Assembly: GCA_016215215.1 (NCBI GenBank)
Contig: JACRKW010000075.1
Span: 1-43,401, forward strand
From: Acidobacteriota bacterium
Lineage (GTDB): Bacteria; Acidobacteriota; Terriglobia; Bryobacterales; Bryobacteraceae
Direction of reading: 5' to 3'
Length of the DNA: 43,401 bases
This document shows positions 33,433-35,342 of the stretch, piece after piece. The notes beneath the pieces are model-generated. The model was not told the DNA's origin. It searched no databases and saw nothing but the letters and a program-made list of their open reading frames with translations. A program made the position numbers and the translations under genes. Positions within the stretch are counted from its first letter, which is position 1, and every line of letters starts with the position of its first letter.

Positions 33433-34657
33433 GCTTGTCTTCAAGCAGGATCAGCAACAACAACAGAAGAACCATGACCGAGCCGATCAGCGGCAGGCCC
33501 ATCAACACGCCGATTCCCAGGTAATGGGCGAAGTAGCCGACCGAGGCGGGAGCCAGCAATCCCCCGGTGAGCGCGAGCGAGAAGATGCCGTTGAAAAACC
33601 CGGGATGGAAATAGGGAAAGCGGTCGCCGATCTTTTCCATGACAAGCGGCAAGATGACGGCGAAGCCGCCGCCGGCCAGCAGCACTCCCACCGTGGCGCC
33701 AAACAGGTTGTTGGTGAGCAGCAGAACCAGGCAGGCGAACATCGGGGCCACCACAGCGCAGGCCAGCAGCCGGGCGTGCGACACGCGCGGCAGCAACCAT
33801 TGCGCGCCCACACGGCCCACCAGCAATGCCGCCCAGTAGAGGGCCAGCAGCAGCAGCGACGTTTCCGGGCTGACCCCCAGCCGCTGTGTCAGGAACAGAG
33901 CCAGCCAGCCGGCCAGCGCGCCTTCATTGCCGAACTGGAAGAAGAGCAGCAGAGTGAACAGGATGGCCGCCGGACTGCGAAAATCCCGGACCACCTCGCG
34001 CCAGGCGGGGTGCTCAACCGGTGTGCCGGCGCCAGTCTTCCATCGCGCGTGCTTGATGGAGGCAAGCAGCGGCGCCACGGCAAGCAGCAGCAGGACGCTC
34101 TGCACCGAATAGGCGAAGAAGGTGCCGGAAACAAACAGGGCGCACACCAGGCACCCCATGCCGAACATCGCCCCGCCCAGGTTGATGGCGGCGGCTTTGT
34201 TCAACTGATAGGCAGCCGACATGGCATGGAATGCCGCCGTGTTCTGGGCGCCGGCGCCGAATCCAACCAGCAGCAGGCCCATCAGGCGCCACCAGAACGG
34301 CACAGGCGGCGTGGAGAAGGCCAGCAGGACCAGAGCCGCGGCGGCCACACCGGCTCCCAGGCTGAGCGTGAACGCAATTCCTTTGCGGCGGATCAACCTC
34401 ATGCCCAGCCAGGCCCCTGCAAGAATGCCAACATTCTGGCACAGGAAGTAGGTGCCGATCAGCAGGTAGTTGGGCGCGATGTGATAACGCCACGCCGGCA
34501 AGACCGCTCCCAACAGCGACATCAGGATGCCGGAGATGAACAACCCCGAAAGTCCACGGCCGGCGGCCGAGCCCTGCAACGCGCCCTGACCGGCTCCCAT
34601 CATGGCCGGATCGGAGACGTGCTGCTGCCCGGTGGGTGGCACCATCGTATTGTACAT
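33419..34657 (-). CDS. MFS transporter
   Basis: A 412-residue protein with about twelve hydrophobic helices. The loop between helices 2 and 3 has GAWLGMRLIRRKG, the MFS A-like motif. GFGAGAQNTAAFHAMSAAY and FQFGNEGALAGWLALFLT resemble the fucose-permease/sugar-porter branch (FGHS-like), so a sugar or sugar-derivative substrate is possible; this is inference. GGAG lies just before ATG 34657. It stands alone, convergent with the secreted unknown. Confidence 0.85.
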   Translation of the reverse strand: MYNTMVPPTGQQHVSDPAMMGAGQGALQGSAAGRGLSGLFISGILMSLLGAVLPAWRYHIAPNYLLIGTYFLCQNVGILAGAWLGMRLIRRKGIAFTLSLGAGVAAAALVLLAFSTPPVPFWWRLMGLLLVGFGAGAQNTAAFHAMSAAYQLNKAAAINLGGAMFGMGCLVCALFVSGTFFAYSVQSVLLLLAVAPLLASIKHARWKTGAGTPVEHPAWREVVRDFRSPAAILFTLLLFFQFGNEGALAGWLALFLTQRLGVSPETSLLLLALYWAALLVGRVGAQWLLPRVSHARLLACAVVAPMFACLVLLLTNNLFGATVGVLLAGGGFAVILPLVMEKIGDRFPYFHPGFFNGIFSLALTGGLLAPASVGYFAHYLGIGVLMGLPLIGSVMVLLLLLLILLEDKLSAA

Positions 34658-34751
34658 CCGCTCCGGTCACTCCACCGTGAGCTGGACCGGACGTCGGCGC
34701 GGAGGATCGCCAGGCTGAAACATTTTTCGGCGATCCTGTTCCAGATTTTCG

Positions 34752-34780
34752 TTGACAGACCGCCCAACCTCGATTAGGAT
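34752..34780 (+). promoter_or_regulatory. Near-consensus sigma-70 promoter of the structured RNA
   Basis: TTGACA at 34752-34757 (perfect -35), a 17-base spacer and TAGGAT at 34775-34780 (-10). Predicted start is A34787, immediately before the 5' stem of the RNA. This is the best sigma-70 promoter I see in the window. Confidence 0.75.
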
Positions 34781-34817
34781 GAGGCCATCACTGAAGAAAG
34801 GAGGTGATCCAGCAACA

Positions 34818-34862
34818 ATGAGAACTGGTAGTTATCACACGCGTGAGGTGGTCGACTGCTAA
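34818..34862 (+). CDS. 14-residue peptide ORF inside the structured RNA
   Basis: ATG 34818 to TAA 34862 encodes MRTGSYHTREVVDC. It is preceded by an exceptional ribosome-binding segment whose AGGAGG core ends 13 bases before the ATG, a long spacing. The peptide is polar and ends in cysteine; it has no signal or membrane segment. It could be a functional small protein or a leader peptide whose translation changes RNA folding. Coding status rests on the ribosome-binding segment and promoter only. Confidence 0.5.
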   Translation: MRTGSYHTREVVDC

Positions 34863-34974
34863 AGCTCGTTCTGGTCACTCTCTGGCCCATCTTCAGTGAA
34901 GGGCCGAGATTGACATGCGCCGGCCATCGAAGCGCATTCCTCAGGCAGCAGGCCTGAGAGAGACAGGCTACCGT

Positions 34975-35016
34975 AACGCCCCGCCGCCGGAGTCCGGCTG
35001 CGGGGCGTTTGTATTT
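34975..35016 (+). terminator. Strong intrinsic terminator/attenuator upstream of rpmE
   Basis: Outer stem AACGCCCCGC (34975-34984) with GCGGGGCGTT (35000-35009), one mismatch, inner stem GCCGG (34986-34990) with CCGGC (34994-34998), and a T-rich tail TTTGTATTT (35008-35016). It ends the structured RNA or, if bypassed, gates transcription into rpmE. Confidence 0.85.
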
Positions 35017-35090
35017 GCCCTCTTTCATTCCTGTTCGCCCCGCGGGCCCCGCCGCTCTGCTATACTGACCTTGTCAAGGACATTCCCCCG

Positions 35091-35342
35091 ATGAAAGCCG
35101 GCATCCATCCCGCCTACAGCGAAATCAGTGTGATCTGCGCCTGCGGTCACAACTTCAAGACGCGCTCCACGCATAAGGGCGACATCCGCGTGGAGATCTG
35201 CTCCAACTGCCACCCGTTCTTTACGGGACGCCAGAAGCTGGTGGACACCGAGGGCCGTGTGGACCGCTTTAACAAGCAGGTGCTGCGTTCCAATGCCCTG
35301 AAGGCCAAACGCGCCGGCAGCAAAGCCCAGCCTGTAGCCTAA
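35091..35342 (+). CDS. rpmE: Large-subunit ribosomal protein L31 (zinc-binding type)
   Basis: An 83-residue protein with the L31 signature [12 protein letters not shown], cysteines 16, 18, 37 and 40 (CACG and [10 protein letters not shown]) and [12 protein letters not shown]. All four zinc ligands are present, so this is the C+ form. The basic C-terminal tail ([10 protein letters not shown]) is ordinary. A TATACT -10-like box is at 35061-35066 but no convincing -35 accompanies it, so transcription may partly come through the upstream structured RNA. AAGGA lies 13 bases before the ATG. Confidence 0.96.

Follow-up and report, generated by a model that had tools for sequence, protein, structure and literature searches.

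Ms_IGR-5 (Rfam RF02471) is listed as an actinobacterial small RNA (sRNA) with no assigned function, and its homologue in Streptomyces lividans is transcribed (PMC8079986). The present analysis concerns a 43,401-nt stretch of a genome of the Acidobacteriota (family Bryobacteraceae, contig JACRKW010000075.1), hereafter the window, in which positions 34752-35016 of the + strand are a real small RNA gene related to Ms_IGR-5. This element carries a complement to the whole 3' tail of the 16S ribosomal RNA, followed by a short open reading frame (ORF). The main point of the analysis, which goes beyond what had been claimed in a preliminary description of this DNA, is the deep conservation of that ORF as a reading frame.

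Three further systems are relevant here: (i) rpsU of Bacteroidota has an extended Shine-Dalgarno sequence that pairs over 9-13 bp ahead of a ribosomal protein gene (PMC9976891), (ii) initiation in Staphylococcus aureus uses extended anti-Shine-Dalgarno pairing with longer spacers, G-U at a variable position included (PMC13009471), and (iii) RyeG of Escherichia coli sediments with 30S and 70S and encodes YodE, a bacteriostatic peptide of 48 amino acids (PMC8058203). No description of the 16S complement of Ms_IGR-5, of its ORF or of its spread beyond Actinomycetota was found in a literature search that left most subscription journals uncovered, which is weak evidence of absence. The combination of a full-length anti-Shine-Dalgarno complement with an ORF whose frame is kept and whose peptide is not seems not to have been described previously.

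A reading frame kept while its peptide drifts

The ORF was compared over 169 collected elements, in which it is 10 to 19 codons long. A stop codon occupies the sixth codon counted from GAG in 162 of them (104 TAG, 34 TGA and 24 TAA), and an in-frame ATG, TTG or GTG lies at the right place in 156. In most of the exceptions, CTG or ATC occupies this spot. A search of Actinomycetota showed ATA there in some copies. These start codons were seen in L080, L095, L109, L120, G559, G676 and others, and suggest that non-canonical initiation could be driven by the very strong Shine-Dalgarno sequence of these copies.

Substitutions in the N-terminal part are spread evenly over codon positions 1, 2 and 3 (172/163/174 in Terriglobales; 548/545/524 in the 18-nt ORF starts). 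Because start and stop are conserved while substitutions are even over the codon positions, the ORF is, by this pattern, kept as a reading frame whose peptide sequence is not conserved. The expression used for the collection itself required GAGGTG, and the invariance of these codons is therefore backed by inspection of BLAST and covariance-model matches only, among which one copy departs. This copy, L019 (position 1527, Bryobacterales), keeps the promoter, the Shine-Dalgarno sequence and the MSFGS start; its ORF end is altered and has no REVAD. In one acidobacterial genus (g71; L050-L055), the ORF has a repeated module, ...SEV...RTREV..., with two in-frame GAGGTG copies.

Complement to the 16S 3' tail

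Mature 16S rRNA normally ends where the pairing of the element stops. Positions 34795-34813 match over 19 nt the 16S tails ...GGATCACCTCCTTTCT of three family or order mates (L211, L212 and L214), and a match of 16 nt is found with the tail ...CCTCCTTAAC of a fourth genome, the family mate L200. Two search patterns found no matching 16S end in the assembly of the window itself, and the pairing lengths are therefore taken from these mates. They bear out the complement of 18 bases reported in the preliminary description (GAAAGGAGGTGATCCAGC, 34796-34813), of which a 17-mer has a single copy in the genome. The predicted hybrid (-30.4 kcal/mol) is the strongest in the window, where the next best site reaches -23.1 and the median upstream of long ORFs is -7.7 kcal/mol.

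The median predicted hybrid over 168 collected elements is -29.8 kcal/mol, and nearly every copy retains the full-length complement. The earlier expectation of a conserved 18-mer thus holds for the long complement and not for its exact letters: GGTGATCC and GGTGGTCC (G-U) alternate among copies, and Terriglobales (L063-L071) have one or two added bases inside the extended Shine-Dalgarno sequence (GGAGG-A-TGGTCC, GGAGG-GC-GATCC). Co-evolution of this insertion with 16S was considered and is refuted by the canonical 16S tail in the six genomes seen.

In energy predictions, undoing the self-fold of the site costs about 6.8 kcal/mol in the window RNA. With so low an opening cost, net binding would still be strongly favourable (predicted median -18.6 over 51 relatives), and pairing with the 16S tail is predicted to prevail over the self-fold of the RNA. 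Two roles had been proposed earlier. Unusually tight binding to 16S precursors is disfavoured, since the precursor sequence beyond the mature 16S 3' end (...TTTCT) is not covered by the complement; the sensing or buffering of translation capacity would be a plausible role.

Layout and structure of the sRNA gene

The order of the parts is promoter, CACTGA, AGAAAGGAGGTGATCCAGC, AACA, ATG and ORF, a hairpin-rich stretch, GGCTACC and a terminator hairpin. In window coordinates, the features are as follows.

34752-34780, + strand: promoter, TTGACA (34752-34757), 17-nt spacer, TAGGAT (34775-34780); read from the sequence, with a like layout ahead of other Bryobacterales copies.
34787-35016, + strand: predicted sRNA transcript of about 230 nt, its ends placed from promoter and terminator.
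34789-34797, + strand: 5' strand of the end helix H1, CACTGAAGA; partner TCTTCAGTG at 34890-34898 in the H4 loop.
34795-34813, + strand: extended Shine-Dalgarno sequence AGAAAGGAGGTGATCCAGC, complementary to the mature 16S 3' tail over its whole length.
34818-34862, + strand: short ORF of 14 codons with ATG start, encoding MRTGSYHTREVVDC and then a stop; the frame, the start zone and the place of the stop are conserved, unlike the peptide.
34841-34854, + strand: 5' strand of the ORF-end helix H3, GCGTGAGGTGGTCG; compensatory changes in 7 of 12 pairs.
34871-34883, + strand: CTGGTCACTCTCT, predicted to hide the Shine-Dalgarno sequence in the closed fold.
34884-34905, + strand: hairpin H4, GGCCC/GGGCC, with TTCAGTG in the loop; compensatory changes in 4 of 5 pairs; predicted to form once the Shine-Dalgarno sequence is opened.
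34921-34935, + strand: 3' strand of H3, CGGCCATCGAAGCGC, assigned by covariation.
34966-34972, + strand: GGCTACC adjoining the terminator; judged by position and pairing, it probably corresponds to the CAGYCACC of other phyla.
34975-35009, + strand: G+C-rich terminator hairpin AACGCCCCGC/GCGGGGCGTT, then TTTGTATTT.

The promoter, the 14-codon ORF and the strong terminator of the preliminary description are all found again here. The promoter matches the consensus at 10 of 12 positions and is the sole such site within 34650-35120 (0.1 in shuffles), and the terminator hairpin is strong, with a tail (TTTGTATTT) that is T-rich and imperfect. The covariance model R1 matches 34786-34939 at 117.9 bits, the window copy itself being part of the model, and the predicted fold of the window RNA is better than that of 200 of 200 shuffles (z -5.1).

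The structured nature of the RNA, also claimed earlier, is supported by covarying helices. In the acidobacterial alignment, the end of the ORF pairs with the downstream strand to form H3, and on the main measures the observed covariation of H3 and H4 exceeds that of all 500 shuffles, as well as that of all slid versions of the alignment. The core pairs of H1 are present in 96.5% of alignment cells, yet scarcely vary. A second Shine-Dalgarno-like motif, GAGGTGG, lies inside the 5' strand of H3 just ahead of the ORF stop. Ahead of the terminator lies the 3' motif AATCC-N-CAGYCACC, whose complement is AGGTGGC in the ORF end; GGCTACC of the window could pair likewise with the ORF end GGTGGTC.

The partner of the 5' end differs between lineages. 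Copies from Bryobacterales pair their 5' CACTGA with TCAGTG of the H4 loop, and pairing of the 5' end with the ORF end gives no signal in this order. Outside Bryobacterales, the same test gives such a signal: the partner of the 5' end is the stretch immediately ahead of AGGTGG in the ORF end (2.89 of 4 pairs; shuffles give 2.15, and 0 of 2000 reach the observed value), with pairing types that include CACGAG/CTCGTG, CCAGAG/CTCTGG, CGCTAG/CTAGCG and CCAAAG/CTTTGG. Opening the Shine-Dalgarno sequence of the window RNA makes the fold model switch to the H4 form.

Homologues and distribution

The RNA is not wholly undescribed, as had first been supposed, being homologous to Ms_IGR-5. No Rfam family matches the window at its gathering threshold, and RF02471 scores 14.4 bits on the window copy against a cut-off of 45 bits. 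In a whole-genome search, RF02471 finds the order mate L032, which is part of the alignment of the window copy, at E 1.8e-4, and the acidobacterial L076 (47.7 bits) and the Zixibacteria copy L103 (55.9 bits) both pass the cut-off. Because these intermediate relatives bridge the low score of the window copy, the element is judged a divergent relative of Ms_IGR-5.

Homologues in related genomes, which the preliminary description proposed to look for, are present. BLAST found the element throughout the genus (nine genomes, eight besides its own) and in many genomes of the family, and a covariance-model search, with a model built from 23 sequences, yielded further copies across Acidobacteriota in which inspection shows the same parts. 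A DNA pattern run over the GTDB genomes matched at least 120 stretches, the first 80 of which are all the element. Among the matches listed are Mycobacterium, Nocardioides, Micromonospora, Acidimicrobiia, Solirubrobacterales and Bryobacterales, as well as metagenome-assembled genomes named Sumerlaeota, Zixibacteria, Deltaproteobacteria and Nitrospirae; phyla with a single record rest on such assemblies, in which binning errors may occur. Each of eight genomes searched again has exactly one copy and zero matches to the reversed pattern. The distribution is patchy by the strict pattern (36 of 296 Actinomycetota), and a looser pattern matches 101 of 396 Acidobacteriota, some chance matches included, as gauged by reversed-pattern matches.

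Several candidates were rejected. In brief, these include: the weak Rfam matches STnc350 and MIR1858 in the window, which are chance matches; the RF02471 matches L037, L034 and L035, also taken to be due to chance, with no Shine-Dalgarno sequence and ORF of the element's kind; the RF01867 matches in the genome of the window (L192/L193), which are not the element; L028, which is the antisense strand of a 16S gene; L177 (Chloroflexi), a chance match in coding-like DNA; and four pattern matches in viral contigs, all in apparently one coding gene.

Proposed mode of action

The element is flanked by an opposite-strand gene for a transporter of the major facilitator superfamily and by rpmE. Some order mates (L020, L032) have a tsaD-like ORF start downstream of it, and pabC-like genes lie upstream in many Actinomycetota, both names coming from reading the translated sequences. 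As the neighbours differ between phyla and the element has its own promoter and terminator, it probably acts in trans.

The best reading, which is given an even chance, is that the element is an independently transcribed sRNA from a divergent branch of the Ms_IGR-5 lineage and that its action is gated by ribosome occupancy. It suggests that being translated is the function of the RNA. Reporting of occupancy is favoured because a frame without a conserved peptide, a Shine-Dalgarno sequence spanning the whole tail and helices that a ribosome must melt all fit it. Judging by sequence and energies, (i) the free RNA would fold on itself and hide the start site, and (ii) an accessible 16S tail would pair over its full length and pull the fold open. 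(iii) The 30S subunit loaded on the ORF of 10-19 codons would then translate as far as a stop whose place is fixed, as the strong conservation of the frame suggests; GAGGTGG lies upstream of the ribosome that terminates there, at Shine-Dalgarno distance from it, and might by this spacing hold it in place. (iv) The ribosome would melt the helices by which the ORF end is tied to both the 5' end and the 3' part, and its passage would leave the 3' part in another state. (v) The open or closed state could alter something in trans, candidates being the stability of the RNA, pairing of a freed C-rich 3' segment with mRNAs, and the retention or parking of ribosomes.

Several points weigh against this occupancy-gated reading. 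All that is known here of the acidobacterial element comes from its sequence and from energies; the elements used in the frame test were gathered with GAGGTG in the search expression; and the shuffle tests ignore kinship among the sequences. Sequestration of the Shine-Dalgarno sequence is an energy prediction only, because an invariant sequence cannot covary, and the exact switch differs by lineage because the 5'-end pairing has been rewired in Bryobacterales.

A broader proposal is more tentative and is rated somewhat below even: the RNA class, over several phyla, would be a general sensor of ribosome availability that uses the complete 16S tail to capture 30S, its readout being the translation of a short frame with an irrelevant peptide, and alphaproteobacterial RNAs of the CC2171 type may be another version of it, built independently. 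If this is true, several phyla measure or buffer free ribosomes via the 16S tail without a protein sensor, an Rfam family so far without a function acquires one, and a further reading frame is kept for the passage of ribosomes and not for its peptide. The long-standing question of how cells gauge spare translation capacity would then become testable.

Among the alternatives, the one that survives best, although unlikely, is a ribosome decoy or buffer, in which an abundant RNA titrates or parks 30S (or terminating ribosomes via the second GAGGTGG) and the ORF merely cycles them. The extreme and conserved tail pairing, the near-consensus promoter and the presence of another Shine-Dalgarno-like motif, GAGGTGG, whose distance from the stop is fixed, all suit it, but a decoy needs neither covarying long-range helices nor a conserved 3' motif.

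A minute mRNA whose short peptide is the functional product is less probable still. Frame, start and stop are conserved, the peptides have ...EVAxx ends in common, and RyeG, a 30S-associated 'sRNA' encoding YodE (PMC8058203), is a precedent. However, amino-acid-changing substitutions in the N-terminal part are as frequent as expected without constraint, and the common end comes from GAG GTG codons that are invariant and lie within an RNA helix.

It is very doubtful that the element is a cis-acting leader or attenuator of rpmE (bL31), like other L31 leaders. The gene does lie downstream in most family members, and at 35091 in the window (Pfam Ribosomal_L31), but the terminator (34975-35009) and then a promoter-like extended -10, TGCTATACT (35058-35066), intervene just ahead of it; the latter recurs in relatives behind the sRNA terminator. 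Other neighbours are found in Actinomycetota and other Acidobacteriota, among them those of L032 named above, and the L31-leader families of Rfam have no match in the window. An antisense RNA on 16S precursors or in 16S 3' maturation, for which the perfect complement to the 16S 3' end speaks, is the least credible, since that complement halts at the mature end and the ORF begins right behind it.

Comparison with known systems

The rpsU type resembles the element in the exceptional length of its 16S-tail pairing, by which particular 30S complexes are selected or stabilised. The element, for its part, pairs over 16-19 nt ahead of a stand-alone ORF in an sRNA, and what follows the pairing is a 14-codon non-conserved peptide in place of a ribosomal protein gene whose product alters access to the anti-Shine-Dalgarno sequence. 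RyeG is likewise an sRNA-sized transcript with a short ORF; unlike in dual-function sRNAs, the peptide of the element is not conserved, its substitutions being equal over the three codon positions.

CC2171 (RF01867), a Caulobacter sRNA, contains GAAAGGAGGUGAUCCAG in its consensus; its score of 13.8 bits on the element, against a cut-off of 75, is driven by the common 16S-tail complement. CC2171-like intergenic elements on alphaproteobacterial plasmids (L194-L197 and L199, near locus position 2501) have GAAAGGAGGTGATC(C), immediately followed by a GTG/ATG ORF (MSHC..., about 24-27 codons), and a terminator-like hairpin, and appear to form another class whose complement covers the full 16S tail. 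They differ from the element in the peptide, the lack of an EVAxx end before the stop and a shorter Shine-Dalgarno spacing, and homology is not established.

The closest relative is Ms_IGR-5. In Bryobacterales, the 3' partner near the terminator is only loosely matched, the 5' end pairs with the H4 loop and not with the ORF end, and most copies have rpmE downstream. Element and family have in common the same order of parts, namely a full-length 16S-tail complement at the 5' end (a segment of the AAGGAGGTGGTCC type), a short ORF ending in EVAxx and a stop, an ORF-end helix with the 3' CAGYCACC, and a terminator.
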